DNA from: a virus
IMG/VR virus record: IMGVR_UViG_3300047470_000526
Span: 1-28,524 of that record
Reading direction: 5' to 3' (one strand)
DNA: 28,524 nucleotides
Below, piece by piece: positions 1 to 27,328 of this stretch. Within the stretch, counting starts at the first letter, position 1, and the number at the start of each line of letters is the position of its first letter. The notes beneath the pieces are model-generated. The model was not told where the DNA came from. It made no database searches and was given only the letters and a program-made list of their open reading frames with translations. Both the position numbers and the translations under genes were made by a program.

Positions 1-204
1 TTACACCACCTGTTTTTTGACGCCACGGCGCAGGTTTTGTTGCCATTGCGCGAGCTCTTCCGCGTCCCAGGCTACGGCGCGAGCGCCGATCTGGATTGGC
101 GGCGGGAACGTGCCGGCCTTGACCCGCTCATAGATGACCGTGCGTTTAATGCCGACCAGATCGATGACGGCTGGGAGACGCAGGAACCGTTTGGGGGTAT
201 TCAT
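1..204 (-). CDS. AlpA-family excisionase-like DNA-binding protein
   Basis: A 67-residue protein of the AlpA/MerR-like winged-helix type. Residues 7-35 (RLPAVIDLVGIKRTVIYERV) form the HTH, followed by the family's FPPPIQIG turn and a W-D-ExE-LxxW segment. AlpA proteins activate or act as directionality factors for P4-type integrases, and an integrase of that type lies at the other end of the window, so a role in excision is a reasonable inference. The ATG at 204 has AAGAGG upstream. The gene overlaps the end of the preceding HTH gene by 59 bases in another frame. It is the last visible gene of the leftward operon; its stop codon is exactly at base 1. Confidence 0.8.
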   Translation of the reverse strand: MNTPKRFLRLPAVIDLVGIKRTVIYERVKAGTFPPPIQIGARAVAWDAEELAQWQQNLRRGVKKQVV

Positions 205-1265: not shown

Positions 1266-1499
1266 TTAGTGCGCTACTAACGTCAAGTGCACGCGCACGG
1301 CTGGCAAAGTGCGCCTGTACTCGCTGGAGAGGTCTACCAGCATCTCTTTAGCGCAGGACTTCATTGCTCTGAAGTTGTTGATCAGCTGGCGCTCTTCGTC
1401 CGTCAGCTGCAGTGCGGCATTCACGACTTTGGCAACCAGCGGAGCGGCACAGTGGCGCTGGCGGGTCGGCTCTACCGAGGCGTGTTCGTCCTTGTTCAT
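1266..1499 (-). CDS. Small helical protein, unknown function
   Basis: A 77-residue protein started at the ATG at 1499. Its start overlaps the stop of the upstream gene as ATGA, which implies translational coupling and argues against the longer frame reaching 1691. The core reads LTDEERQLINNFRAMKSCAK, a short helical motif found twice in the upstream neighbour. That motif resembles the acidic helix (EExxLLxxFRxM) often found at the end of phage regulators. No family is recognised. It is part of the leftward operon behind the PL-like promoter. Confidence 0.6.
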   Translation of the reverse strand: MNKDEHASVEPTRQRHCAAPLVAKVVNAALQLTDEERQLINNFRAMKSCAKEMLVDLSSEYRRTLPAVRVHLTLVAH

Positions 1500-1915
1500 G
1501 CTCGACCTCCAACGATCAGACGCAGCGTTGGCCGCGGGTCCTTCCACGGGTTCTGCCTCGCGATTGCTGCGACCATGCAAGACACGTCGTGCCGCGCGTC
1601 CATGTCCATCGAAAGGAAATCGCTCAACAGCGCTTGTTCTTCGGCCCACAAGGCGGTGACGCGAGGTCCGGGCTGCGTCGCCGCCGGCCACTCTTCAGCC
1701 TTCCGGATTGCGCACCGAAGAGTGATGCGGCGCGCTCGGTCATCCATCGTGCGATAGGCCGCGAGCAGGGCCTGCTCGTCCGCCGGCAACTCGGCCAGCG
1801 GGACGACCTGCAGCTCCGGCTTGCCGGCCGAGCCACTTTTGCTTCCCGCCCTTCGCTTGGCAGCACCCCCGGTTGTACTAACTGCTGCTTTCGTGTGATC
1901 ATTGTGGCTCGCCAT
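1496..1915 (-). CDS. Unknown protein with two EQALL helical repeats
   Basis: A 139-residue protein and first substantial gene of the leftward operon. I chose the ATG at 1915 because GGAGA lies six bases upstream; an in-frame ATG at 1951 lacks a good site. Residues 1-40 are polar and basic, likely disordered. Two helical repeats follow: DEQALLAAYRTMDDRARRIT and EEQALLSDFLSMDMDARHDV. A related copy occurs in the next gene. The family is not recognised; a role as a small regulator or host-modifying early protein would fit the position only, not direct evidence. Confidence 0.65.
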   Translation of the reverse strand: MASHNDHTKAAVSTTGGAAKRRAGSKSGSAGKPELQVVPLAELPADEQALLAAYRTMDDRARRITLRCAIRKAEEWPAATQPGPRVTALWAEEQALLSDFLSMDMDARHDVSCMVAAIARQNPWKDPRPTLRLIVGGRA

Positions 1916-1946
1916 TCTCTTCTCCAAAAAGGTTAGGGCGTAAGGG

Positions 1947-1987
1947 GCCATCCGACGTGTGCAAGACGTCGGGTGGCTTTGTTGTTT
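1947..1987 (+). terminator. Strong hairpin with T-rich tail in the leftward operon leader
   Basis: A 12-bp stem (1947-1958 with 1966-1977, one G-T pair) around a 7-base loop is followed on the + strand by TTTGTTGTTT. In that orientation it looks like an intrinsic terminator, although no + strand gene ends here. On the - strand the same hairpin lies in the leader of the leftward operon, 32 bases before the first gene's start. It may stop antisense transcription or act as a leader structure. Confidence 0.45.
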
Positions 1988-2007
1988 ATGAGTGGCGCTG
2001 GGTTACT

Positions 2008-2103
2008 TCAGTCGGCTTTGGCTTGGCCTGGGTGAGGGCCACAATGCGACATAGGCAGCGATCGCTGGCGGTAGGAGGTGTACTGCGTGCTGTGTGCGCT
2101 CAT
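2008..2103 (-). CDS. Possible leader micro-ORF
   Basis: An open frame of 31 codons starts just downstream of the predicted start of the PL-like transcript. The second of two adjacent ATGs (2101-2103) has GAGG five bases upstream. The peptide (MSAHSTQYTSYRQRSLPM..., basic, no recognisable domain) has no known relatives to me. It could be a leader peptide or chance. Confidence 0.25.
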   Translation of the reverse strand: MSAHSTQYTSYRQRSLPMSHCGPHPGQAKAD

Positions 2104-2105
2104 CA

Positions 2106-2132
2106 TTGCCTCAACTTAAGTAAGTGAGGCAA
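2106..2132. promoter_or_regulatory. Inverted repeat at the PL start site
   Basis: TTGCCTCA (2106-2113) and TGAGGCAA (2125-2132) form a perfect 8-bp inverted repeat with an 11-base spacer. The right arm covers the predicted transcription start of the leftward promoter. It differs in sequence from the AGAnnTTTCT operators, so it may be the site of a second regulator or form a hairpin at the very 5' end of the transcript. Confidence 0.4.
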
Positions 2133-2161
2133 GTATAGAAATATCTAAACCATCGTGTCAA
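2132..2161 (-). promoter_or_regulatory. PL-like promoter for the leftward operon
   Basis: On the - strand TTGACA (2161-2156) is followed after 18 bases by TATACT (2137-2132), close to the sigma-70 consensus. The start should be near 2125. From the -35 region to the -10 the sequence almost duplicates the rightward promoter at 2950-2979, with an identical 18-base TTAGATATTTCTATACTT. It should drive the genes from 1915 down to 1. Confidence 0.7.
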
Positions 2162-2170
2162 GAAATTTCT
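2137..2170. promoter_or_regulatory. Two OL-like operators
   Basis: Two 10-base sites of the form AGAwwTTTCT overlap the PL-like promoter. They are AGAAATATCT at 2137-2146 (AGATATTTCT on the - strand) and the perfect palindrome AGAAATTTCT at 2161-2170. Their starts are 24 bases apart, the same spacing as the corresponding pair at the rightward promoter. The second overlaps the repressor gene's stop codon. They are most likely bound by the adjacent repressor and Cro-like protein (inference). Confidence 0.5.
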
Positions 2171-2907
2171 TACGCCTCTTCAGCGTGGGTCTTAGCAAAG
2201 CGATTGAAGATGGCAATTATGACTCCCATTGCCTCGATCGCCTCATCTTTGACTGTCAATGAAAGGGCGCCGTCGATTATCGATCCGAACGCATGCTCAC
2301 CTTCACGTTCATAAAGGAACTGCAGAACTGCCCGGCTTTGGTCTTTGAAAAGAACGAACACTTCGTCTCCAGGCTGGGCCCAAGACCCGTCCTCTGCGAC
2401 AAAGAAATCACCATTTTTGATCCTTGGGCGTAACCCAGTACCCTTGATCTGGACAGCAAAAAGGTTCTGCGCCGAGTAGTAGTCCAAATAGCGTTGGTTC
2501 CAGGGCTTCGTCGGCTCATAGACTTCAACAAGGCCCGAAGCATCAGTCATTACTTCAGCTATGACCGGTATGCGAGCTAAGTACGGGGCGGAAGGAGACG
2601 AATCGATTGGCTGCGTTCTGTCCGTCGCTACTCGAAGCTCCGCCGTGCTGAATGGCAAGCTAAGGACCTTCTCCTCTTGCTTGCTGAGCTCTAGATCTAG
2701 CCAGCCTGGTGGGTTTCCCACTCGTTCGTCGATTGTGCGGGCTGCTCGCTCACCAATACTCCTTCCGCCGTTATATGTCTCAGACAGAAATTGAGAAACT
2801 TGCGATCTCGAATAGTCGTATTTTCGTGCAAATTCCGCAATGTTGCCTTGACTCATCTTCTCAACTAAGAGGGCTAGACGAGCCCGGCGGCGGGCATAGA
2901 TATCCAT
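2170..2907 (-). CDS. Phage repressor, HTH plus S24-fold domain without catalytic dyad
   Basis: A 245-residue CI-like repressor. Residues 5-60 form a XRE-type HTH (GNIAEFARKYDYSRSQVSQF). Residues about 112-240 carry the LexA/S24 fold (IPVIAEV, then IKGTGLRPRIKNGD, then DEVFVLF). Family members cut themselves with RecA help using a Ser in G-x-S-M and a Lys about 40 residues on. Here the Ser position is Gly158, and the region AVLQFLYERE has no Lys at the expected place, so self-cleavage looks impossible. It probably shuts both early promoters and its own gene: an operator lies at 2920-2929, just upstream of its start. AAAGGA precedes the ATG at 2907. Induction may need an antirepressor instead of the SOS route. 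Confidence 0.87.
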   Translation of the reverse strand: MDIYARRRARLALLVEKMSQGNIAEFARKYDYSRSQVSQFLSETYNGGRSIGERAARTIDERVGNPPGWLDLELSKQEEKVLSLPFSTAELRVATDRTQPIDSSPSAPYLARIPVIAEVMTDASGLVEVYEPTKPWNQRYLDYYSAQNLFAVQIKGTGLRPRIKNGDFFVAEDGSWAQPGDEVFVLFKDQSRAVLQFLYEREGEHAFGSIIDGALSLTVKDEAIEAMGVIIAIFNRFAKTHAEEA

Positions 2908-2919
2908 GGTTGTCCTTTT

Positions 2920-2974
2920 AGAAGTTTCTTATCTTACGGTAGATTTTTCTTGACGAAAAGAGTTAGATATTTCT
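2920..2974. promoter_or_regulatory. Three OR-like operators
   Basis: Three 10-base sites share the pattern AGAnnTTTCT. They are AGAAGTTTCT (2920-2929), AGATTTTTCT (2941-2950) and AGATATTTCT (2965-2974), with starts 21 and 24 bases apart. The last two flank the -35 and touch the -10 of the rightward promoter; the first lies 13 bases from the repressor ATG. This is the three-site arrangement of a lambda-type right operator. Binding by the repressor and Cro-like protein is inferred from position. Confidence 0.55.
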
Positions 2975-2979
2975 ATACT
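2950..2979 (+). promoter_or_regulatory. PR-like promoter for the rightward operon
   Basis: TTGACG (2950-2955), 18-base spacer, TATACT (2974-2979). The predicted start, seven bases after the -10, is base 2986, which is the A of the ATG of the Cro-like gene. The transcript would therefore be leaderless. It should drive the Cro-like gene and the replication genes. Confidence 0.75.
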
Positions 2980-2985
2980 TTGTTC

Positions 2986-3270
2986 ATGGACTTCTATACC
3001 TATCTCAAATCAGTGCCGAATAACCAGCGCAGTTCGTTTGCGGCCGCATGCGGTACGACGTATGCGCGCTTGCGGCAGGTTGCATATGGGAATGAGCCAG
3101 CTAGCCCTGAGCTCTGTGTCGCGATCGACCGAGAGTCAAAAGGAGTCGTCTCCTATTCGGCTGTGAACGACAAGTGGCTTAGTCGTAACGGCCCTTCCGA
3201 CGGACGTAAGCGTATCCCGATGGACTGGGGCTATGTCGAAGCCCGAGTGAAGGGCAGCATTCCTAGCTAA
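2986..3270 (+). CDS. Cro/YdaS-like regulator
   Basis: A 94-residue protein in the cro position, divergent from the repressor. The start is the ATG at 2986; the in-frame TTG at 2950 is part of the -35 box and cannot be transcribed from this promoter. Residues 1-55 (MDFYTYLKSVPNNQRSSFAA, then TTYARLRQVAYGNEPASPEL and CVAIDRES) fit the YdaS/Cro HTH layout, where a 'region of residues SxELCxxIDRxS' closes the domain. The C-terminal half (VNDKW, then a basic stretch) is variable. There is no Shine-Dalgarno because the message probably begins at the ATG itself. It likely competes with the repressor for the AGAnnTTTCT operators (inference). Confidence 0.72.
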   Translation: MDFYTYLKSVPNNQRSSFAAACGTTYARLRQVAYGNEPASPELCVAIDRESKGVVSYSAVNDKWLSRNGPSDGRKRIPMDWGYVEARVKGSIPS

Positions 3271-3369
3271 TCGAAGTCAACTTGAAGCCTACGAGGATCG
3301 CCACCGCTAACCCGGCTGGCGCAGGCCTTTGCACGTCCAAATTTTGACGCGACACCACGAGACTTAACT

Positions 3370-4089
3370 ATGGCAACTATTGCAGACACCACCTGCCTGG
3401 CGGCTCGCATCGAGGCAGCGATGAACAGCGGCGCCTACGACCCCTATAGGCCATCGAGTGCGCTTACCGAGTTCGTGGTCGTGCGCCATTTTGTGCGCGC
3501 GAATTTCGATCGCCATCACCGTGTTCGGGCGGAGCTGGCGCGTGTCAGGCGGCTCGCGGATAGGCTGGGTGGGTCGCCGTTCAACAAACACCGCCTCGAA
3601 CAAGTGAACGACTACGTCACCACCCTGAAGGAACTTTTGATCATGGTCCGGAAGGCCGAGGAGAGGCTAGGGCGTATTGTTATCGATATGGCGCCCCGCA
3701 TTGATGCGGAAACCACGATGGCGCAGCGCTTGGAGATCCTGAACTGCAATCTCGCGGACAGGAGTAAGTTGGATGAGTCCGACATCGGCCTGGTCGACCT
3801 GATCGGCGTCTACTGCGTCGAGGACTCGGCAGCGCACCGCGGCGACGAGTTCAACGACCGGCCGCTGCATGGCGCCGTGAACGCGGAAATTATTCGTGTG
3901 ATGTTCCGTACACCCGAGGGGCGCGCAGCATCGAAACCGATCTTCGACGCTGCGTTTGAGCCTGGCGGCATCCTGCATGGCGTGTCGACCTATTACCGGC
4001 AGCCTGATGGGACGATGAAGCGCAAGGCGCCATCGCTCGTTCTGCATGATGCAGCTGGCTCCCGCGTGATCGAGCGGACTCCAGCATGA
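3370..4089 (+). CDS. Unknown early phage protein
   Basis: A 239-residue protein between the Cro-like gene and the replication genes, where lambdoid phages carry cII-type or replication accessory genes. I do not recognise the family. Residues 1-110 are largely helical and basic (VRHFVRANFDRHHRVRAELA, then a leucine-rich VTTLKELLIMVRKAEERLGR). Residues 130-239 are more mixed, with ESDIGLVDLIGVYCVEDSAA. No membrane segment or clear HTH is visible. The start at 3370 has no strong ribosome site. Its stop overlaps the start of a 23-codon ORF as ATGA. Confidence 0.72.
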   Translation: MATIADTTCLAARIEAAMNSGAYDPYRPSSALTEFVVVRHFVRANFDRHHRVRAELARVRRLADRLGGSPFNKHRLEQVNDYVTTLKELLIMVRKAEERLGRIVIDMAPRIDAETTMAQRLEILNCNLADRSKLDESDIGLVDLIGVYCVEDSAAHRGDEFNDRPLHGAVNAEIIRVMFRTPEGRAASKPIFDAAFEPGGILHGVSTYYRQPDGTMKRKAPSLVLHDAAGSRVIERTPA

Positions 4090-6893: not shown

Positions 6894-7088
6894 ATGCAGC
6901 TGCAAACACGTACACGCCACCGGGGTGCTAACCGGTCAAGCTCCCTCATGGGGGCGCGAAGTGGGGCGGGCTTCGCCCCCGGCAGGGCGAACAACTTCCA
7001 CAGGAAGTGTAGTGAGTACACCGGTCCCGCCCGGTGGTGGTGGCTTCAGCTGGCGCTGGCGCTCGCACTCGCACAGAGGCTCCCATGA
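6894..7088 (+). CDS. Possible small protein ahead of the relaxase
   Basis: A 64-codon frame with AGGAG seven bases before its ATG and a stop that overlaps the relaxase start as ATGA (7085-7088). The product is basic at the start (MQLQTRTRHRGANRSSSLMG) and hydrophobic near the end (RWWWLQLALALALAQ). The DNA also contains the oriT candidate, so coding may be secondary. No family is recognised. The 240 bases before it (6651-6893) hold no gene I can support. Confidence 0.35.
   Translation: MQLQTRTRHRGANRSSSLMGARSGAGFAPGRANNFHRKCSEYTGPARWWWLQLALALALAQRLP
6994..7021 (+). other. oriT: Candidate oriT for the MobV relaxase
   Basis: ACTTCC/GGAAGT (6994-6999, 7003-7008) forms a small hairpin. It runs into a second one, GTGTA-GTGAG-TACAC (7007-7021), with 5-bp stem and 5-base loop. 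The pMV158 MobM site, as I recall it, has the same plan: AAGTATAGTGTG, nick, TTATAC. Here AAGTGTAGTGAG is followed by TACAC, so the nick is predicted between 7016 and 7017. It lies 64 bases before the relaxase gene on the same strand, as in MobV plasmids. Confidence 0.6.
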
Positions 7089-8155
7089 CCCAACCCCACT
7101 ACTGCATACTCCGCGCCAAGAAGCTGAAGTCGTTTGGCTCCATCGCTGGCTCGGCAAAGCACACGTTCCGCGAGATCCCGACCCCGAACGCGGACCCAGA
7201 CCGGACCCGCCTCAACAAGACCATAGGGGCGCAAGACTCGGCGGCCGTGTGTGCGGCGATCGAGGCCCGCCTGCCGGCGAAGCGGCGCAACGATGCCGTG
7301 CTGTGCATCGAGTACCTGATAACGGCGTCCCCGGAATGGTTCAAGACGGCTCCAACCGAGCAGCAAAACGGCTACTTTAAGGAGGCGGTGGCCTGGCTGC
7401 GACAGCGCCACGGCGCCGAGAACGTGGTTTGCCTGAACATGCAGCACGATGAGAAGTCGCCCCATCTGGTGGCCTACGTTGTCCCGCTGACCAAGGACGG
7501 CCGGCTGTCGGCGAAAGACTTCCTCGGCGGACGCCAAAAGCTCACAGCGATGCAAACGGAGTTCGCCAAGGTGGTGGGCGCACCCGCCGGCCTGCAGCGT
7601 GGCGTAGAGGGCTCGAAGGCGGTTCACACGACAGCGAAGCAGTACGCCGCAGCGATGCAGGAAAATCCGGCCTTAGCCCCGCCTGCGCCCCTTCCTGCGC
7701 CATCGATCGCGGACCGGCTCAGCGGGCGCTGGGCTGAAAAGCAAGCGCAACACCATCAGGAGCAGGTTGAGCACGCAGCCCTTGTCGAGAAGGCCCGGAA
7801 TGAGGCGCGGGTGGGCAGGCAGAACCGGCAGCGCCAGGCCGCGGCCCTGGAGAGGATGCGCGCTGAGATCGAGGAGGCGAAGCGCCACGCGGCAGAGGCG
7901 ACCCAGCTGCGAGGGGAGAAAGCGCGCCTAGAGCGGGAGCTGAGGGAGCAGCGCACGTACTTCCAGCGCCAGATCGACACCGTCAAGGCGGCACTAGCCA
8001 AGGCGCTGGACCAAGTAGAAGGACTGTTGCGGAGGAATCGGCTCTTGGAGGCAAGGGTGGCAAGCGCCGAGGCCGAGGCGGACGAATTGCGAGCAATATT
8101 GGCCCCGGACGAATCTCGGCCAGACCTTGTGCCGAGTGGCGCTCAGTGCATTTAA
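7085..8155 (+). CDS. mobV: MobV-type relaxase (Mob/Pre)
   Basis: A 356-residue DNA relaxase that would nick oriT and lead one strand during conjugative mobilisation. The ATG at 7085 fits the family start (MTQPHYCILRAKKLKSFGSI). Residues 19-29 (SIAGSAKHTFR) align with the MobM segment holding its nucleophilic His, here His25. DAVLCIEYLIT (70-80) and the metal region QHDEKSPHLVAYVVPL (120-135) follow. The usual HxDExxPHxH is altered: the first His is shifted by one and the last is Val. Residues 230-345 are a long charged coiled coil. No coupling protein or mating-pair genes are present, so transfer would need a helper. Confidence 0.85.
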   Translation: MTQPHYCILRAKKLKSFGSIAGSAKHTFREIPTPNADPDRTRLNKTIGAQDSAAVCAAIEARLPAKRRNDAVLCIEYLITASPEWFKTAPTEQQNGYFKEAVAWLRQRHGAENVVCLNMQHDEKSPHLVAYVVPLTKDGRLSAKDFLGGRQKLTAMQTEFAKVVGAPAGLQRGVEGSKAVHTTAKQYAAAMQENPALAPPAPLPAPSIADRLSGRWAEKQAQHHQEQVEHAALVEKARNEARVGRQNRQRQAAALERMRAEIEEAKRHAAEATQLRGEKARLERELREQRTYFQRQIDTVKAALAKALDQVEGLLRRNRLLEARVASAEAEADELRAILAPDESRPDLVPSGAQCI

Positions 8156-10721: not shown

Positions 10722-11036
10722 ATGAAACTAACCACCCTCAAGCCCCGCCTGCAGGAAGTAGGCAACCGACTCCCCACTCTCAAGGTCAGCGCCGGCACCG
10801 TAGAGCGCAAGCGCGGCTCTGCTGGCGTAAAGGACCGTGAACGCATCCGGGCCCGAGATTACGGCCTGTGCCAGGCATGCCGACGAGAGGACAAGATCAG
10901 CATCGGCGTCGACGTCGACCACATTGTTGCGCTTGCAGATAGCGGCTCCGATCACGACGACAACAAGGAATTGTTGTGCGAGGAGCATCACCGGGCAAAG
11001 AGTACGGCCGAAGCGGCGCGCCGGGCTGCTGGCTAG
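10722..11036 (+). CDS. HNH endonuclease
   Basis: A 104-residue HNH nuclease. CQAC (residues about 48-51) and a later C-x2-H-H (LLCEEHHRAKS) give the zinc ligands, and DVDHIVAL contains the catalytic His; DDNKELLC completes the beta-beta-alpha-metal motif. Phage HNH proteins of this size usually lie next to the terminase genes and help cut packaging sites. Here no terminase follows; the next gene on that strand is the tape measure. The gene's last bases overlap the end of the convergent lipoprotein gene by four bases. It could be active but orphaned. Confidence 0.82.
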   Translation: MKLTTLKPRLQEVGNRLPTLKVSAGTVERKRGSAGVKDRERIRARDYGLCQACRREDKISIGVDVDHIVALADSGSDHDDNKELLCEEHHRAKSTAEAARRAAG

Positions 11037-11374
11037 TGCTTGTCGTGCCCTCGCTCGACCTGCTCGGCGATCTGTAGCGCCCGGGCGCAGTTGGCCTCAT
11101 CGCCAAAGTAGATAACCGCATCCTTCTCGCGGATGGACTGCGCGGCCGTGAAGGGCTTAGCCCCGGCGTAACCGCCGAACGAGTTCTTTGCATTGACCAT
11201 TCCGCACAGCACTGAGATCGAGCCATCGGTCGTTTTCTTCAGATCGAGCTGACTGAACTCGGCGGAGCTCGGGTCTTTCAACTCCTGTCGAACCTTGGTC
11301 AGGATCTCCTTCTCGGTCGAGTTGCACCCCGCGAGCATGGCAGCAAGGGCGAGAACTGCGGCAGTCATACGCAT
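11033..11374 (-). CDS. Small lipoprotein
   Basis: A 113-residue exported lipoprotein. The ATG at 11374 (GGAGG four to eight bases upstream) gives a clean signal peptide MRMTAAVLALAAMLAGCNS with lipobox LAGC; the longer frame to 11494 has no such signal. The mature part (ILTKVRQELKDPSSAEFSQL, then CGMVNAKNSFGGYAGAKPF) matches a widespread small periplasmic family of unknown function often encoded on mobile elements. It is transcribed against the surrounding phage genes and so may be a lysogenic-conversion type gene expressed from its own promoter. Confidence 0.78.
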   Translation of the reverse strand: MRMTAAVLALAAMLAGCNSTEKEILTKVRQELKDPSSAEFSQLDLKKTTDGSISVLCGMVNAKNSFGGYAGAKPFTAAQSIREKDAVIYFGDEANCARALQIAEQVERGHDKH

Positions 11375-11571
11375 GTTTCCTCCGGGTAAAGATTCGATTA
11401 TGCATGAGCCTGCCCGGCCTGCGGCAAGGCGAAGAGGGGAGGGGGGATGATTCTCCACAGCAATAGAAAAGTTGGACACCCCTTGTACTGCCATGCGTAT
11501 AAAAAATCGCCCCTGGAGAAAATGTTAATCAAATGGCCGAGCTATTAACCGACCACTCTTCATAGGAGAAC

Positions 11572-11594
11572 ATGTGAAAAACCGAACCATTTGA
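11572..11594 (+). other. ATG-TGA start-stop / six-codon leader
   Basis: A good ribosome site (TAGGAGAAC) leads to ATGTGA, a start codon followed at once by a stop. The overlapping GTG opens a six-codon frame (VKNRTI) ending at 11594. It lies just before a terminator. It may be a leader peptide site or the scar of a deleted tail gene. Confidence 0.3.
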
Positions 11595-11620
11595 AAGCGC
11601 AAAGCTGTTAAAGCACGTTA

Positions 11621-11653
11621 AAGCCGACTTCCTTAACAGGGGTCGGCTTTTTT
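11621..11653 (+). terminator. Intrinsic terminator upstream of the tape measure gene
   Basis: AAGCCGAC (11621-11628) pairs with GTCGGCTT (11642-11649), followed by TTTT. It sits between the ATG-TGA leader and the tape measure start, so tape measure expression must come from read-through or a promoter in the 65 bases after it. Confidence 0.78.
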
Positions 11654-11716
11654 ATTGGGAAATTCCCCAAAAAGGGGCTCTCGGCATGCCGGGAGTGAAC
11701 GAAAGAGAGGGCGACG

Positions 11717-14700
11717 ATGACTGATCGCCAAATTGGAATTGAGGTCACGGTCGACGCCAGCAATGCGCGGACCGGGATCAACCAGATCCGCCAGGAGGCT
11801 AACAACCTGGCGCGAGATGTTACCCAGGCCAGTGAACGAAGCGGGCGGAGCCTGGAAAACCTCGGCGGCGGTGCCCCGGCGGCCGCGCGCAACATCGACG
11901 GTGCCACGCGTTCAATCGTGCAATCGATTCAAAGGACGACAGCGGCAATGGAGGCTGGTGGGCGCCAGACGTCGACCTACTTCGAGCTGCTGGCCCGGCA
12001 GCGCGGCGCCGACGGCAATACGATCGCGCCGTACGTGGCGCAGTTGCGCGCGCTCGAGCAGCAGCAGGGGCGCGTAGGGATCTCGGCCGCCCAGACTGCA
12101 AACGCGATGCGCCAGCTGCCGGCACAACTAACCGACGTGATTGTCGGCTTGCAGGGGGGCCAAGCGCCCCTCACGGTGTTCCTGCAGCAGGGCGGGCAAA
12201 TCCGCGACGTCTTCGGCAGCGCTAGCGGCGCCCTTCGGGGTGTCGCCTCCTCGCTGGTCAATATGGTCAATCCGTACAGTATCGCGGCGGTCGCGGCGGC
12301 AGGCCTCGCGTATGCATATAACGAAGGGTCGAAAGAGGCAGACGCGTACAACCGCGCGCTGATCATGACCGGCAACGCCGCCGGCACCAGCGCCGGGCAA
12401 TTGGCCGACTACGCCCGCGAGATCGCCAGGGGGATCGGCACCCAATCGGCGGCCGCAGGCGCACTCGCGGCGCTGGCCGGTACTGGCGAAGTCTCGGCCA
12501 AAAACATGCAGCAGTTCGGCGCCGTCACTGTGGCGGCAAACAAGTACATCGGAATCAGCGTTCAGGACATGGCGAAGGACTTCGCCGACCTGGGCCGCAC
12601 GCCAGTCTCATCGCTCCTGAAGCTAGACGAGAGCTACCGATTCTTGACCAGCAGCGTCTATGAACAGGTGAAGGCGCTGCAGGACCAGGGCAAGAACGAC
12701 GAGGCCGCCGAGGTGGCGCAGAAGGCCTATGCATCGGCCTTTGCTGACCGTGCTGACCAAATGAAGGGCCAGCTCGGCACCATCGAGCGAGCCTGGATAG
12801 GCGCCAAGGATAGCGCTGCCTTGGCGTGGGACGCGTTCCTCGGCGTCGGACGAAAAGAAACCGCGAAGCAGGCGCTCGCCAAGATCCAAGAGCAGATCAA
12901 GCTCGCATCAGCGCCAGCACCTACCAGGGGAGGGGAGCGCGGGGACAATGCCGCAATGCGTCAGGCCGCGGCGGCGTCGAACCTGCCGGAGCTCTTGAAG
13001 CAGGAGAGGGAGGCGAAGTACCAAGTTGAAAAGGAGGAGTGGGATAACCAGCAGGCCGCGATCGCCGAAAGCCTGCGCCGCTCCAGCCTGGAGTGGGACA
13101 AGGTCATGGAAGGAACCATGTCCAAGGCCGCTCGGCTTAAGGCTGCGATCACCAGGGTGCAGAACCAAGGCGAGGCCGCCGGCGCGTCCGATGACGCCAT
13201 CAAGAAGGCGATCGCCAAGGTGCAACAGGACTTCGCCTCTCTCGATAATCCGCTGCTGGCCAAGCTCGAGGGGAATCGCACCGTTCAGCGCGAGGTGCTG
13301 GCGGGCCAATTGGCGGATCTGGAAACCTCCTACAAGCTGCAATTGGTCAGCCTGGGGACATACATCACCAGAAAGCGCGACCTACAGACCCAAGAGCTGG
13401 ATCTGGAAATCGACATCATCAGGCAGCGCGCCGCGGTCGACAAGGGCAAGGAAGATCAGTCGGCCTACCAGAAGGATGAGGCCGACCTGCGGGCGGCGAT
13501 GCAGCGCCGCGCGAACATCATCAGTGGCGCCAATAACGCCCTCAGCGAGGAGATTTTCGCGTCCAACAAACGGGCCTGGGAAGGGGCTGACGGCTACGCC
13601 AAGATCATGAAGGACTACGCCGACGCCCAGCAGAAGACGATCGATGCCGCGATCAAGGAGGTGGAGGCGAATGAGCGGCTCGCCCAAACCTACGGGATGA
13701 CCCGGAAGGCGCTTGCCGAGTTTGAGATCGCCCGCCTCGAGGCGCAGCTCGCGCAACATGGAGCGGGGGCGTTCTACCTCGATGAGATTGAAAGCCTCGA
13801 AAAACTGATCGCTGCGAAGAAGAAAGGCGCGGCGGCTCTGGGCCGGCTGGATGATCTAGACGCCGGCAAGAAGGCCACGGAGGAGCTCGATCGGCTTTTG
13901 GACCCTACCAGGGCGCAGTCGTTTGGCGACGCCTTGCGAACCGCCTTTGGGTCTGCTGGGGACTCGATCGCCAAGCTGACCGGATCGCTCCAGCAGTTTG
14001 GCATTAAGCAGGGTGAAATCGCCAAGGCCCGTGCTCTTGCCGACACCGAGCTCAAGGCCAGCGGCAATTACGAGAAGTACCTGGACCGTATCAGCAAGCT
14101 CAACGAGCGCAACACGAAGGAGCAGCTTGGGGGCTATGGCGACATGGCCGCCGCCGCGTCGTCGTTCTTCGGCGAGCACAGCCGCGGCTACCAAAGCCTG
14201 ATGGCGGTGTCGCAGGTGTTCCACGCTGCGGAGCTGGCGATGACAACCGCCGAGCTCGTGCCAAAGGCGATCAGTGCGGTGCTGACCCAAGGCGAGGGCG
14301 ATCCATACAGCGCGTTCGGCCGTATGGCAGCGATGGGCGCGCTTGTCGCAGGCCTGGGCGTGGCGATTGGTGGCATAGGTGGCGGAGGCAGCACGCTTGC
14401 CGCCGATAGGCAGAAGGCGGCCGGCGCCGGCTCTGTTTTCGGCGACAGTGACGCAAAGTCGGAATCGATCAAGCGCGCGCTCGAGGCGGTGGAGAGGAAC
14501 ACCTATCAGGATCTGGCGATCAACAGCAGCATGCTCATCGCCCTGCGTAGCATCGACACCAACATCAGCAGTTTTGCGAGCCAGCTGGTGGGCAGCACCG
14601 ACATTACCAACCCGAAGTTCTCTCTGAACACCAACAACGGCTTCGCCTCCACGGTTGGCACGCTGGGCCTGACCGCTGGCGGCGCTGCTCTGGGCGGCAT

Positions 14701-17026
14701 GGCGGGCGCTGGGCTCAGTGCATTCACCTCTCTTGGCGCGGTGGGTGGTCCTATCGGTATGGTTGCCGGCGCCATCGCGGGGGCCGTCCTCGGGAAGATC
14801 CCCGCTGTCGCAAACCTGATGACCTCGATCTTTGGCGGCAAGCAGAGCGTCGAAGATTCGGGCTTCGGGATGGATGCTGCAAGCCTGGCGTCGATCCTGG
14901 GCAGCGGAGCGCACGCCTACCAGTACGCGGACATCAAGACCTCTGGCGGGTGGTTTGGCAGCGCCAACCGCGACGAGAAGACCACCGCTCTGAGCGATTC
15001 TGCCAACCAGCAGTTCACGGCGATCATCACTTCGCTGGCGGACAGCGTGAAGACGGCGGGCAGCATGCTGGGACTCTCGGGCGACGATTTCACCAACAAG
15101 CTGAACGGCTTTGTTGTCGATATTGGGCATGTGAGCCTGAAAGACCTCAAGGGCGAGGAGCTGCAGAAGGCGCTGGAATCGGTGTTCTCGCGTCTGGGTG
15201 ATGAGATGGCACAGTCTGCTGTTGGCGGCCTGGCGCAGTTTGAGCAGGTTGGCGAGGGCTACCTTGAAACCCTGTCTCGAATCGCGGGCGAATATCAAAC
15301 CGTCGACGTCGTCTTCCAGTCCTTCGGCAAGACGTTCGGGGAGATGGGCCTTGCCTCGATCGGTGCGCGCGACCGGCTCATTCAAATGGTCGGCGGCCTG
15401 GACAAGTTCACCAGCCAGGGCGAGTTCTTCCTGCAGAACTTTTTCACCGAAAAGGAGCAGGCTGCGGCGCTCAAGGCCCGCATCGACCCAACCCTGGCGC
15501 AGTACGGCTTGTCGAGTGCAGGGGCGAACGCGGACAAGATGTTCCGTGACTTCATCGTCGGCCTCGATACCACAACCGAGGCTGGCGCTACGGCCTATAC
15601 CGTCCTGATGGGAATCGCGCCGGCGCTCAAGTCGGTGTTCGATGCCGGGAAGGATGCGCTGGACGAGCGGAAGGGCCTGCAGGACCAGCTCGACGAGCTG
15701 ACGATGTCTTCGACCCAGCTTCTGGCCAAGCAGCGTGACGCGCTCGATGAGAGCAACCGCGCGCTGTTCGACCAGGTGCAGGCCGTGAAGTCGCAGGCCG
15801 CCGCGATTGAGGCGATCAAGACCAGCGCCAGCACGCTTCTCAGCGGAGTAGATAGCGCTTACTCGGCGCTTCAAAAGGTGGTGGGCCGCGAAAGGACGGC
15901 AACCCAAAGCATCATCGACACCCATACCGAGGTGTTTAGCCGGCTGCAGTCTATGTCCCAGGCACTGCACAGCACCCTCGACAGCCTCAAGTCGCCCGAG
16001 CAAAAGCTGTACGAGCGAGCGGCGGCCCAGGCGGAGATCCGGGCCGATCTGGCGATCACCAAGGCCGGCGGCAAGCTGTCGGATGCGCAAGCCGAGTCGC
16101 TGAAAAAGGCGCTGGGCGTGGTGACGCAGGACGCATCCAGCCAGTTCAGCAGCTACACCGACTACATGCGCGACCTGTACCAGACGCAGGCCGACGTCGC
16201 TGGGCTGGCAGACATTACCGATGATTCGCTGTCGGTAGAGCAGGCGATTCTCGACCAGGCTAAGGAGCAGCTCAAGTCGCTCGACAACGTGCTGACCAGC
16301 GCGCAGACCCAAATTGACATCCTGAAGGGGATCGACACCAACGGGCTGACGCTGATTCAGGCAATGCAGGGCCTGAGCTCTGCAATCGTGGGCGCCCAGG
16401 GCAACCCCATTGTGGGGGCAACCAGCGCCATCAACAGTGCCTACCAGTCGGCCTTGGGGCGCGTGCCTGATGCCGGCGGCTTGGAGTATTGGCAGAACGT
16501 CGCCGCCGGCGGTACCTCGATCTCCGACATCATCTCCGGCATCAAGGGCTCGACCGAAGCCAGCCTCAACAGCCTGTATCAGAGCGTGCTGCACCGAGCC
16601 CCGGATGCCGCGGGCCTCCAATTCTGGGTGAACGCCTTCGGCCCAACGATGGACGAAAACGAAAAGGCGGACTGGCTCAAGGCGGCGCAAGCCGAGTTGA
16701 CCGGCAAGCTGCATCCGTTCGCGATCGGTACGAACTTCATCCCGCAGGACATGCCGGCGATGGTGCACAAGGGTGAGCGGATCATCCCGGCGGCTGACAA
16801 CCGGCTGCTGATGGCGACATTGGCGCGCGCCAGTTCTGGCAGCGGTGTCGACGTTAGCGAGTTGGTGGCGGAGGTCCGTGAGCTGCGGAGGGAGAACGCC
16901 GAGATGCGGCGCCAGCAGGAGGCCTACCTCTTGGCGATCACGAAGAACACCATGAACACCCATGACGTTCTCGACCAGCTTAGCGAAGGCGGGGCCGCAA
17001 TGCGGGTGAAGATGGAAACCGAGTAA
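11717..17026 (+). CDS. Tail tape measure protein with DUF4214 repeats
   Basis: A 1769-residue tail-length tape measure protein, by far the largest gene. The N-terminus has the lambda-H-like signature (MRQLPAQLTDVIVGLQGGQA, then PLTVFLQQGGQIRDVFG at about residues 137-167). Hydrophobic segments occur at about 177-202, 870-890 and 983-1028, and long charged coiled coils at 400-720 and 1330-1540. Residues about 1571-1640 hold two DUF4214 repeats (AYQSALGRVPDAGGLEYW, LYQSVLHRAPDAAGLQFW). Such proteins set tail length and exit with the DNA during injection. Size implies a long non-contractile or contractile tail. GAGAGGG precedes the ATG. No tail chaperone genes lie upstream. Confidence 0.93.
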   Translation: MTDRQIGIEVTVDASNARTGINQIRQEANNLARDVTQASERSGRSLENLGGGAPAAARNIDGATRSIVQSIQRTTAAMEAGGRQTSTYFELLARQRGADGNTIAPYVAQLRALEQQQGRVGISAAQTANAMRQLPAQLTDVIVGLQGGQAPLTVFLQQGGQIRDVFGSASGALRGVASSLVNMVNPYSIAAVAAAGLAYAYNEGSKEADAYNRALIMTGNAAGTSAGQLADYAREIARGIGTQSAAAGALAALAGTGEVSAKNMQQFGAVTVAANKYIGISVQDMAKDFADLGRTPVSSLLKLDESYRFLTSSVYEQVKALQDQGKNDEAAEVAQKAYASAFADRADQMKGQLGTIERAWIGAKDSAALAWDAFLGVGRKETAKQALAKIQEQIKLASAPAPTRGGERGDNAAMRQAAAASNLPELLKQEREAKYQVEKEEWDNQQAAIAESLRRSSLEWDKVMEGTMSKAARLKAAITRVQNQGEAAGASDDAIKKAIAKVQQDFASLDNPLLAKLEGNRTVQREVLAGQLADLETSYKLQLVSLGTYITRKRDLQTQELDLEIDIIRQRAAVDKGKEDQSAYQKDEADLRAAMQRRANIISGANNALSEEIFASNKRAWEGADGYAKIMKDYADAQQKTIDAAIKEVEANERLAQTYGMTRKALAEFEIARLEAQLAQHGAGAFYLDEIESLEKLIAAKKKGAAALGRLDDLDAGKKATEELDRLLDPTRAQSFGDALRTAFGSAGDSIAKLTGSLQQFGIKQGEIAKARALADTELKASGNYEKYLDRISKLNERNTKEQLGGYGDMAAAASSFFGEHSRGYQSLMAVSQVFHAAELAMTTAELVPKAISAVLTQGEGDPYSAFGRMAAMGALVAGLGVAIGGIGGGGSTLAADRQKAAGAGSVFGDSDAKSESIKRALEAVERNTYQDLAINSSMLIALRSIDTNISSFASQLVGSTDITNPKFSLNTNNGFASTVGTLGLTAGGAALGGMAGAGLSAFTSLGAVGGPIGMVAGAIAGAVLGKIPAVANLMTSIFGGKQSVEDSGFGMDAASLASILGSGAHAYQYADIKTSGGWFGSANRDEKTTALSDSANQQFTAIITSLADSVKTAGSMLGLSGDDFTNKLNGFVVDIGHVSLKDLKGEELQKALESVFSRLGDEMAQSAVGGLAQFEQVGEGYLETLSRIAGEYQTVDVVFQSFGKTFGEMGLASIGARDRLIQMVGGLDKFTSQGEFFLQNFFTEKEQAAALKARIDPTLAQYGLSSAGANADKMFRDFIVGLDTTTEAGATAYTVLMGIAPALKSVFDAGKDALDERKGLQDQLDELTMSSTQLLAKQRDALDESNRALFDQVQAVKSQAAAIEAIKTSASTLLSGVDSAYSALQKVVGRERTATQSIIDTHTEVFSRLQSMSQALHSTLDSLKSPEQKLYERAAAQAEIRADLAITKAGGKLSDAQAESLKKALGVVTQDASSQFSSYTDYMRDLYQTQADVAGLADITDDSLSVEQAILDQAKEQLKSLDNVLTSAQTQIDILKGIDTNGLTLIQAMQGLSSAIVGAQGNPIVGATSAINSAYQSALGRVPDAGGLEYWQNVAAGGTSISDIISGIKGSTEASLNSLYQSVLHRAPDAAGLQFWVNAFGPTMDENEKADWLKAAQAELTGKLHPFAIGTNFIPQDMPAMVHKGERIIPAADNRLLMATLARASSGSGVDVSELVAEVRELRRENAEMRRQQEAYLLAITKNTMNTHDVLDQLSEGGAAMRVKMETE

Positions 17027-17053
17027 GGGCCTGTAGCCCATCACTGAAACACG

Positions 17054-17089
17054 AAACGCCTCTGGAGCCTCACCGCCCAGGGGCGTTTT
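17054..17089 (+). terminator. Hairpin after the tape measure gene
   Basis: AAACGCC (17054-17060) and GGCGTTT (17082-17088) pair, with further pairing CTGG/CCCAG inside, then TTTTG. It is a probable attenuating terminator between the tape measure and next tail gene. Confidence 0.62.
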
Positions 17090-17107
17090 GCATATGGAGA
17101 TTCATAA

Positions 17108-18028
17108 ATGACAGCATCCCTAAGCGTCCTGAAGCCGACGACGATTACCAGCGCCACCCTGAGCAGCAGCACGGTCGCCGAGAACGACTACCCAGCGTGG
17201 TCCAGCGCCACCGCTTACGCCAAGGACGATTTTTGTATTAGCCAGGTGACGCACCGGATTTACCAGTGCATGGCCCCAAACACCGGCAAAGACCCTACCA
17301 GCATCAACAATCAGGCCGGCACTGTCGCCTATTGGCTCGACGTCGGGCCGACCAACCGCTGGGCCATGTTCGATGGGGAGGTGAACACCCAAACGATCGC
17401 TCCCTTGTCGCTGACCGTCGTTCTGCAGCCTGGGCCAATTGACGCAATCTACCTTACGGGGCTGGAAGCCAGCCACATCGAAATAGTGGTGAAATCTGCC
17501 CCCGGCGGCGACGTCATCTATAGCCAGTCGGCCGAGCTCGAGGCGTCGGCGCCAGATGACTATTGGGAGTATTTCTTTGATCCCTTCAAGCCGTTGACAG
17601 ACTTCCTTGTCAGCGACCTTGCGCCCTGGGGCGGCGCTGAGGTGACGGTGACGCTGTCGGCACTGGGCGGGGACGTGAAGTGCGGCGCGCTCGCGGTAGG
17701 GCAGCTGCACCCGCTCGGCAGGACGCAGCGAGGCGCAGCGGCCAAGCCCAAGACCTACAGCTACATCAAGACGGACGATTTCGGCCGAACCGAGATTAAG
17801 CGGCGTAAGTCGACCACCGATATGACGGCCTCCGCATATATCGACATCGCCGAGGCCAGCGCCGTCACGGAGCTACTACAAAGCCTGCTCGACGTCCCTA
17901 CCGTGTGGATTGGCTCCAGCCAGCCCGAGTACCGGGCGCTTCGAGTCTTCGGGCTGGGAAGTGGTGACGTCGTGTTTAACGGCCCGAGCGGCGCCGAGCT
18001 CTCGCTGACGGTGCAGGGCCTGATCTAA
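17108..18028 (+). CDS. Phage tail protein with CBM-like N-terminus
   Basis: A 306-residue protein directly behind the tape measure, the place for distal tail or baseplate proteins. Residues 28-65 (YPAWSSATAYAKDDFCISQV and RIYQCMAPNTGKDP) resemble the short carbohydrate-binding type segment (W..G..Y..GD....G..Y.C....N) found in many tail and tip proteins. The rest is beta-rich with no recognised domain, ending LSLTVQGLI. GGAG precedes the ATG. A role in tail tip assembly or surface contact is inferred from position and fold style. Confidence 0.75.
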   Translation: MTASLSVLKPTTITSATLSSSTVAENDYPAWSSATAYAKDDFCISQVTHRIYQCMAPNTGKDPTSINNQAGTVAYWLDVGPTNRWAMFDGEVNTQTIAPLSLTVVLQPGPIDAIYLTGLEASHIEIVVKSAPGGDVIYSQSAELEASAPDDYWEYFFDPFKPLTDFLVSDLAPWGGAEVTVTLSALGGDVKCGALAVGQLHPLGRTQRGAAAKPKTYSYIKTDDFGRTEIKRRKSTTDMTASAYIDIAEASAVTELLQSLLDVPTVWIGSSQPEYRALRVFGLGSGDVVFNGPSGAELSLTVQGLI

Positions 18029-18091
18029 CCAGCGACAGGCCGGACGATTATCCGATTCGTAATAGCAAATACAAATTAAAGGACGCAAACA

Positions 18092-18526
18092 ATGGAACTG
18101 CACGATTTGAACAGCCCAATCCGGTACATCTACTGTCTGGTCGACACTGAGAACAAGCGCTTTAAGCTGGGCTCGACCCTGCACGCGCACTACGCGCCAG
18201 CGCTTGCGACGGCGTACTGCCCCTTCGATTCCTTTCAAGTGGGATACGTCGAGGAGCTTGCGCTGATCGGCGAGCGGGTGCTGCGCGAGCAGCATGCGGA
18301 CGAGATCCTGGCGGCCGAGGGCGAGCAAGTCGATGACGGCGTATGGATGCGTATGGCCGCCTTCGACGTCGTGCGCGCCACCCTCTGCCATATGCAGCAC
18401 ATCGTCCCTCCTTCAGTCCTCTGCCTAACCTCCGACGCGGCCGCGCTGACGATGCTGGATCACCAACTGGAGAAGCAGCGTCTTGAGCTGTGCGACAAGC
18501 TGGACGAGCTGCTGGGGCTCAAATGA
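18092..18526 (+). CDS. Unknown protein, weakly GIY-YIG-like N-terminus
   Basis: A 144-residue protein. The first 25 residues (RYIYCLVDTENKRFKLGST) resemble the first two strands of GIY-YIG/T5orf172 domains, but the catalytic Arg expected shortly after is not evident, so nuclease activity is doubtful. The C-terminal third is a coiled coil (LDHQLEKQRLELCDKLDELL). AAAGGACG precedes the ATG. The stop overlaps the start of the gp10-like gene as ATGA, so the two are made together. It may be a tail assembly helper; the family is not recognised. Confidence 0.65.
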   Translation: MELHDLNSPIRYIYCLVDTENKRFKLGSTLHAHYAPALATAYCPFDSFQVGYVEELALIGERVLREQHADEILAAEGEQVDDGVWMRMAAFDVVRATLCHMQHIVPPSVLCLTSDAAALTMLDHQLEKQRLELCDKLDELLGLK

Positions 18527-19032
18527 GAATCGACGTTTCCGACTTGGTCAGCGCTCTAGGCGACGTCGAGGAGCAGGTGCTGAGCAGCATTGATGAACAG
18601 AGCCTGCGTGCGATTGGGTTCGCCGGCGCCGAGGTCATAATGGATGAGGCAAAGCGTAATGCATCAAGGCACGTTCGGACCGGCACACTCGCGAAAAACA
18701 TCATCACAAAGCGCTTGGAAGAGAAATCAGACGGCGACCGGCACCAGACCTATCTCATCACAGTAAGGAAGGGGCGATACGGCATAGACGGTGATGCGTA
18801 CTACGCTGGATGGGTCGAAAACGGGCACAAAATCGTCCCAAGGAAGCCTGAGGGAGTTAGCTGGAGGGCGCACCGCACGGCCGCAGAATGGGAGTACGGT
18901 GGTGCCACTGTGCCCGCCTATCCATTCCTCCGGCCAGCCTGTAGTAAGCAAGAGTCCGCTATTGACGCCATGTCGCAAAAACTAGCCGATCAGCTCCAGC
19001 GGAACGCTACCCGGGGCGGACGGCAGCGCTGA
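18523..19032 (+). CDS. HK97 gp10-like tail completion/connector protein
   Basis: A 169-residue protein of the HK97-gp10-like family. The pattern fits: an early helix, a central EAKRNASRHVRTGTLAKNI segment in which R-TG-L-xx-I is the hallmark, then YAGWVENGH and PAYPFLRPA near the end. The ATG at 18523 is coupled to the upstream gene. In siphophages this connector is encoded between the head and major tail genes, before the tape measure; here it follows it, so the module is rearranged. Confidence 0.82.
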   Translation: MRIDVSDLVSALGDVEEQVLSSIDEQSLRAIGFAGAEVIMDEAKRNASRHVRTGTLAKNIITKRLEEKSDGDRHQTYLITVRKGRYGIDGDAYYAGWVENGHKIVPRKPEGVSWRAHRTAAEWEYGGATVPAYPFLRPACSKQESAIDAMSQKLADQLQRNATRGGRQR

Positions 19033-21731: not shown

Positions 21732-22226
21732 CTACTTCAGCGGCCAGAACCATACTTTCCGAGACGACCAGTAGCAGCCGGTCGCAGTACCATCAATCTC
21801 ATGTCCACAGCGGATGTATTTCCCCCATCGGTCCATTGAGACGATGGCGATGTGCCCTTGGGGGTTATTGTCCCCATAGATGCTGAAAAAGGACACGATC
21901 CCATGCCGGGCCTCGATCGCCTTCTCAGCCTCAAGCCCGCTCTTATACTCCTCGGGCTTGCCGATGTGGCGGACCAACCAGTTGCTCAGCCGGCGCTGCC
22001 CGGTTTCGATCATGCGGCCCTTGTACTTCCCGGCCTTGATGGGATAGGTGCCGGGGTTTGGGAAGCCGGCGCCGAGCAGCGCAAGGCTCATGCGGATCGC
22101 GCATGTGTTATAGAAGCCCGGGTCTGAGATGTTTTCAGGATGCCCGATCCACTGATATAACTCGTCACGATCGACGCTGTCTGGGTCGGGGAAGTGCATC
22201 CTGAGGGTCGCATACGGGGCCTTCAT
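21732..22226 (-). CDS. tae4: Tae4-family type VI amidase effector
   Basis: A 164-residue peptidoglycan amidase of the Tae4 type. Catalytic Cys42 lies in FYNTCAIRMSLALLGAG, the typical N-terminal active-site helix, and His125 in PQGHIAIVS. Tae4 enzymes cut the peptide bond between D-Glu and mDAP in the periplasm of rival cells after injection. The ATG at 22226 (GGAGG upstream) overlaps the stop of the immunity gene by four bases. Unlike most pairs, the effector is the last gene, after its immunity gene. Length and catalytic residues look intact. Confidence 0.88.
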   Translation of the reverse strand: MKAPYATLRMHFPDPDSVDRDELYQWIGHPENISDPGFYNTCAIRMSLALLGAGFPNPGTYPIKAGKYKGRMIETGQRRLSNWLVRHIGKPEEYKSGLEAEKAIEARHGIVSFFSIYGDNNPQGHIAIVSMDRWGKYIRCGHEIDGTATGCYWSSRKVWFWPLK

Positions 22227-22645
22227 CGCGACCTCCGCTGAACAGCCGCGCACGGCCATTTCGCCCGCCAGACTTCAACGATGAGGTCGGCTGCGTTCCG
22301 CTTGAGCTGGGCGTCAGACATCCGCTGCAGCGAGTGCCGCGCGTCGGCCACTAGCTCGTCCGCCAGGGGCTTGTACTGTTTGCTCCAGCACCAATCCTTA
22401 CCCTCTGTCGCGTCGTGCACGCCCTGAATGAAACCATGGACGAGCTCCCCATTCGACATGTCAATGTATTCAGCTGCGATGGCGCGGGTGCGAAAAGGGC
22501 CGTCCGGCGCCCACCTCACGGTAGACGGGTCGGTATTCCCCATTAGCTTGACCAGACGCTCGCCGGTCATCCAGGGGGTAGTGGCAGCCGGCTGTGCGAG
22601 GCATGGCGCGCCGAGCACCAGGCCTAGCAGAATAAGGGTGCGCAT
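22223..22645 (-). CDS. tai4: Rap1a/Tai-family immunity protein
   Basis: A 140-residue periplasmic protein. Residues 1-18 are a signal peptide (MRTLILLGLVLGAPCLAQPA). The Rap1a/Tai fold shows as AAEYIDMSNGELVHGFIQGV, Cys86 and Cys132 (a likely disulfide) and PLADELVADARHSLQRMS. Such proteins bind and block Tae4 in the cell's own periplasm. The start at 22645 is the last base of the hcp stop region, so hcp, immunity and effector are translated in one run. Cell protection from the adjacent effector is the obvious role. Confidence 0.83.
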   Translation of the reverse strand: MRTLILLGLVLGAPCLAQPAATTPWMTGERLVKLMGNTDPSTVRWAPDGPFRTRAIAAEYIDMSNGELVHGFIQGVHDATEGKDWCWSKQYKPLADELVADARHSLQRMSDAQLKRNAADLIVEVWRAKWPCAAVQRRSR

Positions 22646-23136
22646 TATGCGAGCCTGTTCGTGGCCAAATCCCACCCGCCAGTCGTGTTGCCACTGCTGC
22701 CGCCGCCAATCTTCTGCTGGGTGTATTTCCACCTCACCTTGGAGAATTTCAGGCCCAAGTGCTCACCAGGAATGTCCCCGCCTGCGAAGCTGGGCGCCAC
22801 CTGTGCGATCAGGACATTCTCGAGTTCGACTTCAAAGTACTTGATCGGCTCGCCGTTACCGTCGGCGCGCATCATTTCCAGCTTGGCCTTTGGGATGGTC
22901 TTGCCGCAAGCGCAGAGTTGGGCCAGCATGGGCGAGGACATGTCAACCAGCTTGCTAACGCTGATCTCGCTGAGCTCGGCGCGCTCGGCAGTGTGGCCAC
23001 CGCCGGTCGAGGCCGTCGCGCTTTTAGGTTGATGTATGTTCCAACTGATCGACGTGCACTCGATCCAGCCGGTGTGGCGCGAGTCCGCTGATTCGCCCTT
23101 GATGCCGTCCAGTTGCAGGTAATAGTCCGCTGCCAT
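22645..23136 (-). CDS. hcp: Hcp, type VI secretion tube protein
   Basis: A 163-residue Hcp1-family protein. Hallmarks: MAADYYLQLDGIKGESADS, W.ECTSISWNI, the TASTGGGHTAERAELSEISV loop with SKLVDMSSPMLAQLCACG, and a late KFSKVRWKY strand. Hcp forms the hexameric inner tube and carries small effectors inside. GGAGAG precedes the ATG. No other type VI structural gene is in the window, so it must rely on a host machine and probably chaperones the Tae4 effector encoded downstream. There is no C-terminal toxin extension. Confidence 0.94.
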   Translation of the reverse strand: MAADYYLQLDGIKGESADSRHTGWIECTSISWNIHQPKSATASTGGGHTAERAELSEISVSKLVDMSSPMLAQLCACGKTIPKAKLEMMRADGNGEPIKYFEVELENVLIAQVAPSFAGGDIPGEHLGLKFSKVRWKYTQQKIGGGSSGNTTGGWDLATNRLA

Positions 23137-27293: not shown

Positions 27294-27328
27294 GGCGTAG
27301 GGCCTGACTCAAAATCGTGTCCTACGCC
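27294..27328. terminator. Shared hairpin between convergent genes
   Basis: GGCGTAGG (27294-27301) pairs perfectly with CCTACGCC (27321-27328); the right arm includes the integrase stop codon. It probably ends transcription from both sides. Confidence 0.5.

Follow-up and report, generated by a model that had tools for sequence, protein, structure and literature searches.

In phage lambda, the outward-facing promoters PL and PR flank the repressor gene, multiple operators overlap both promoters, and the promoter-proximal pair of operators is spaced by 24 bp. Lambda has three left operators, the rexAB genes, and a left operon whose far end holds xis and int; OR2 is located about 42 bp from the start of PRM, which is a feature of lambda but not a defining one for lambdoid immunity regions in general. 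The known system closest to the one described here is the PaaR2/YdaS immunity region of CP-933P from E. coli O157:H7, where experiments have shown that the -35 and -10 elements of PL are identical to those of PR, that PaaR2 and YdaS each repress both promoters and have overlapping footprints, and that the repressor lacks a peptidase motif (PMC8630535). In PY54, a leaderless cro mRNA has been measured (PMC4488713).

Here, we report the analysis of an IMG/VR virus record of 28,524 bases (IMGVR_UViG_3300047470_000526; hereafter, the window), which very probably contains a lambda-style immunity region with a repressor, a Cro protein, operators shared between OL and OR, and an alternative mode of release. 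The evidence comes from the anatomy of the sequence, its conservation, the co-occurrence of the operators with the helix-turn-helix (HTH) domain of the repressor, and the loss of catalytic residues.

The first-pass annotation had described two mirrored promoters facing outwards across a repressor gene, an 18-base element common to both, and a set of two left and three right operators, and all of these were confirmed. PL (2132-2161, minus strand) combines TTGACA (2161-2156) with TATACT (2137-2132), and PR (2950-2979, plus strand) combines TTGACG (2950-2955) with TATACT (2974-2979), both with an 18 bp spacer; the predicted start sites are near 2125 and at 2986, respectively. These were the only promoter-like matches in a consensus scan of positions 1400-3400, and the interval between them holds the repressor gene (2170-2907, minus strand) alone. 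Flanking of the repressor gene by two outward promoters is conserved in the relatives described below. The shared 18-mer, TTAGATATTTCTATACTT, is found at 2963-2980 on the plus strand and at 2148-2131 on the minus strand, and consists for the most part of the promoter-proximal operator and the -10 box.

The operator motif AGAnnTTTCT, with the consensus TTTAGAAATTTCTAAA, overlaps both promoters, starting at 2137, 2161, 2920, 2941, and 2965, and occurs nowhere else in the 28,524 bases. The OL1 (2137-2146) and OR1 (2965-2974) cores lie between the -35 and -10 elements of PL and PR, respectively, the OR2 core (2941-2950) abuts the PR -35, and the OR3 core (2920-2929) is proximal to cI. The OL2 core (2161-2170, AGAAATTTCT), a perfect palindrome, merges with the PL -35 and the stop codon of cI (TAA, 2172-2170) into a single 17-mer, TAAGAAATTTCTTGACA, that is conserved in two relatives, L003 and L024. 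The spacing of 24 bp originally proposed for both promoter-proximal operator pairs holds as well, and OR3 and OR2 are 21 bp apart. In 100 first-order simulations with the same dinucleotide make-up, the motif was expected 0.44 times per window, with a maximum of 3, and 20,000 shuffles of the two AT-rich intergenic stretches gave at most two places and never five. The five-operator pattern is not a product of chance.

Searches of viral and genome collections with the single repressor sequence yielded no relatives; these were recovered by a 17-mer scan, a Cro search, and HTH alignment and profile. The repressors of L003 and L024 are 54% and 58% identical to that of the window, their Cro proteins are 87% and 82% identical, respectively, and both loci have the same 2+3 operator set with spacings of 24, 24, and 21 bp. 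The HTH profile added the lineages L005/L057, L050/L055/L056 (L050 being from Bordetella trematum), L054, and L058. An operator matrix trained on the window, L003, and L024 only finds matches at OR and an OL pair 22-24 bp apart in L005, L050, L054, and L058; in all four, OL also has a TTGAC -35, and the promoter there faces outwards. Other sequence or genes separate the repressor from OL in these four loci, whereas nothing does so in the subfamily of the window. Two left and three right operators can be counted clearly in the window, L003, L024, and L058; L050 has a degenerate OR3, and in L054 and L057 no OR3 is evident. In the Bordetella trematum prophage, the gene located between the cleavable-type repressor and OL encodes a ParA-like ATPase (L050 5250-6290, plus strand). 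Several matches to the operator-pair pattern were set aside, namely L044 and L046-L049, which represent one unrelated sequence with no related repressor or Cro, and L045, with a single AT-rich match and likewise no related repressor or Cro.

The outgroup, in which we sought the operator at the repressor start, consisted of L059-L064 and of more distant loci in further genomes from the same order. The operator is present in all 7 lineages with related HTHs and in 0 of the 22 outgroup loci with more divergent HTHs, two of which are near-identical to each other (Fisher p=6e-7, for lineages that are not fully independent). The operators thus follow the repressor HTH.

The cI-like repressor, a protein of 245 amino acids, combines an N-terminal HTH with a degenerate S24/LexA-like C-terminal domain. 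Its Pfam matches to HTH_28 and Peptidase_S24 are each slightly under the cut-off, its PHROG annotation is transcriptional repressor, and its profile matches are the CP-933P CI HTH (nearest solved structures 7nkv and 8c3k) and a LexA chain. Alignment shows that the S24 serine is replaced by glycine and the lysine by glutamine, and that the scissile glycine is absent, in the repressors of the window, L003, and L024; the repressors of mEp043, LPPA56, and an IPK phage retain the Ser/Lys dyad and the scissile glycine in the same alignment. The window, L003, and L024 repressors therefore lack the hallmarks of self-cleaving CI/LexA (S24) proteins, that is, the dyad and the scissile Ala/Leu-Gly. Because these residues have been lost, RecA cleavage is unlikely, and release probably occurs by a route other than RecA-stimulated self-cleavage. 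In the family at large, the L050 repressor has an S24 domain above the cut-off. An AlphaFold model of the window repressor, built from three sequences, had a mean pLDDT of 50 and was too poor for use.

The cI gene is preceded by a Shine-Dalgarno sequence, AAAAGGA (2913-2919, minus strand), that has a counterpart in L003 and L024, and sequence comparison points to a candidate PRM -10, TAAGAT (2931-2936, minus strand; TAAGAT in L003 and TATGAT in L024). The distance from the OR2 centre to the cI AUG is 38.5 bp in the window and 37.5-38.5 bp across the window, L003, and L024. The window thus departs from lambda, in which OR2 precedes the PRM start by some 42 bp, and at this short distance lambda-style activation from OR2 is impossible at the Shine-Dalgarno-led cI starts of the three loci. 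The candidate -10 places OR2 in the promoter spacer, and repression of PRM by OR2 is therefore predicted, given this -10. In L050, L054, L057, and L058, the cI start has the form TNNAAT-6 nt-ATG and looks leaderless, and the OR2 centre is 42.5 bp from the AUG, matching the lambda geometry.

The cro gene (2986-3270, plus strand) encodes a 94 amino acid YdaS-like HTH protein that matches PHROG_35 (transcriptional repressor). Its nearest solved chains, 8co2 and 8c7k (E about 0.01), are both named Cro; the match to the PDB Cro of the YdaS family has E=0.012, and that to Pfam YdaS is below the cut-off (E=0.027). In 7 of 7 lineages, 6 nt separate the PR -10 from the cro ATG. Because this distance places a normal start on the AUG itself (the predicted PR start, 2986, coincides with the A of this AUG), the cro mRNA is predicted to be leaderless. 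Downstream of cro are O-like and DnaB replication genes, so that, as in lambda-type regions, a small, divergently transcribed HTH gene comes first on PR and is followed by replication functions. A Mob_Pre (plasmid mobilisation/recombination) relaxase gene (7034-8155, plus strand) is located downstream of the DnaB gene.

On the left, small genes run leftward from PL to an AlpA-type excisionase/regulator gene at the far end (1-204, minus strand; Pfam Phage_AlpA, E=3e-17). In L024, the first PL gene encodes a Bro-N/KilAC antirepressor (Bro-N and ANT domains). This gene is absent at the same place in the window and L003, the short reading frame that follows PL in these two is not conserved at the protein level, and no recognizable antirepressor was found among the window genes scanned. 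LexA boxes in the window were not above chance. RNA folding suggests a hairpin, GCCTCA..TGAGGC (2108-2130, minus strand), over the Shine-Dalgarno sequence belonging to the first reading frame after PL (GAGG, 2112-2109), with its 5' arm upstream of the predicted PL start. In read-through RNA, the hairpin has energies of -12.8, -8.7, and -13.6 kcal/mol in the three sequences folded (z about -2 to -2.7), a set too small for proof, and it is lost in all three when the RNA begins at the predicted PL start and hence without the 5' arm. Because OL2 and the cI stop codon are fused, no terminator separates cI from PL, and transcripts made in the lysogen would run on into the left operon; in this read-through RNA only, the first PL ribosome site may be concealed by the hairpin. 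That it thereby keeps the first PL gene (the antirepressor in L024) silent in the lysogen, with translation only after PL fires, is a conjecture that we consider rather doubtful. At the start of the leftward genes, there is also a strong, rightward-pointing terminator-like hairpin (1944-1980, plus strand), conserved in L003 and L024, yet no rightward gene precedes it.

A tyrosine integrase gene, identified by Pfam, lies at the opposite end of the record (27322-28524, minus strand). On a circular map, the two ends of the record are probably adjacent, given that alpA sits directly upstream of int in four relatives (L096, L102, L106, and L108). In both the window and L090 (1 and 16176), the alpA stop codon marks the beginning of the record and the start of the integrase gene its end; int therefore probably closes the left operon on the circular map, as in lambda. 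The shared ends suggest a circular form that was opened at an identical position in both, with approximately 260 bases missing compared to the relatives. Near its integrase gene, L090, which has a dead S24 repressor, encodes an IrrE/ImmA-like metallopeptidase (13714-14307, minus strand; Peptidase_M78, HEIGH motif) that could provide another route of repressor removal; no counterpart was found in the window.

From this arrangement, we infer how the proteins bind and repress, where transcription starts, which protein occupies which site, and how release comes about. The region would serve a temperate, lambdoid-type element as its immunity region, in which the repressor would bind OL1-OL2 and OR1-OR3 within the -35/-10 regions and shut off PL and PR. 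PR would drive the leaderless cro and then the replication genes, and PL would drive the leftward operon ending with alpA and probably int. The YdaS-like Cro would oppose the repressor, probably via overlapping sites, and through the cI-adjacent OR3, the repressor would probably limit its own synthesis. Release would probably involve another factor, such as the antirepressor encoded first on PL in L024.

The identical 18-mer on both sides could also be taken to mean that one promoter is a recent duplicate of the other and that the repeats are duplication footprints, not operators. However, the left and right sides have in common the operator, -35, and -10 only, the inter-operator spacer differs between left and right in each phage, whereas the right sides are alike across phages, and the arrangement is kept in six other lineages; a duplication of this kind is extremely improbable. 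The operators might, alternatively, serve chiefly Cro/YdaS or another DNA-binding protein, for example, AlpA, instead of the repressor, a reading that accords with the overlap of the PaaR2 and YdaS footprints in CP-933P (PMC8630535) and to which we assign little probability: the operators track the repressor HTH, and L005, L050, and L054 retain them despite a Cro sequence type different from that of the window and L058. For the immunity switch that we favor, the differences in Cro among the lineages likewise weaken the case for an operator shared by Cro.

There is, finally, a small chance that the element is decayed and that the region is what remains of a switch, as a non-working relic. The stretch from the HNH gene to the tape measure gene (10722-19032) yielded no terminase, portal, or capsid gene, and this may be a defective element or a satellite; the window and L003 also lack the antirepressor gene of L024. 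The immunity region itself is nevertheless undegraded: the reading frames of the repressor and cro are uninterrupted, and every operator and promoter is intact. Elsewhere in the window, an HK97-gp10/Neck1-like gene comes after that for the tape measure protein, which is an unusual order, and a type VI secretion set comprising Hcp, a Tae4-type amidase, and a Rap1a-type immunity protein (21732-23136, minus strand) is placed between the tail genes and the integrase of this virus record. Rfam and tRNA scans of the window produced no matches.

The functional immunity switch that we favor shares with lambda the outward flanking promoters, the overlapping operators, the 24 bp proximal spacing, and the xis/int-type end of the left operon. 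The initial reading of the locus as a copy of the lambda OL/OR logic is supported: six other lineages share the operators, the mirrored promoters, and the spacings. The details depart from lambda, with two left operators instead of three, no rexAB, a repressor without the Ser/Lys dyad, a Shine-Dalgarno-led cI with OR2, at 38.5 bp, too close for the PRM geometry, and a cro predicted to be leaderless. By the tests made, the window would be classified as a bipartite lambda-type immunity region that falls outside the self-cleaving repressors.

The likeness to CP-933P extends to the mirrored PL and PR, the operators on both sides, the CI-like repressor without a peptidase motif, and probably the use of a YdaS-type Cro (PMC8630535). 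Unlike the window, CP-933P has an 18-bp palindromic operator with the consensus GTTTAGTAA, carries toxin-antitoxin genes between the repressor and PL, where the window has the repressor alone with OL2 fused to its stop codon, and is reported to have a leaderless paaR2, not ydaS (PMC8630535), whereas it is cro that is predicted to be leaderless in the window. A leaderless cro is also seen in PY54, but there both cI and cro are leaderless, and Cro binds a single operator (PMC4488713). By analogy with Gifsy-type repressors, which are released without cleavage, an antirepressor route is plausible, although Gifsy antirepressors are small, LexA-controlled, and encoded outside the immunity region (PMC3121763), in contrast to the Bro-N/KilAC candidate under PL in L024.

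The mirrored layout is of a kind already known from CP-933P and lambda. What does appear to be undescribed is the operator sequence, together with the fused, compact OL; a text search found no paper describing this operator, a weak indication given that sequences are poorly indexed. The locus thus represents an operator class and a repressor family that are apparently undescribed and are common to several prophages, including that of Bordetella trematum. Because operator and HTH move together, immunity groups would be predictable from sequence. Across the family, one DNA-binding module is paired with an S24 domain above the cut-off, a catalytically dead one, or none, and this variation would make the relationship between induction route and switch layout testable inside a single family.
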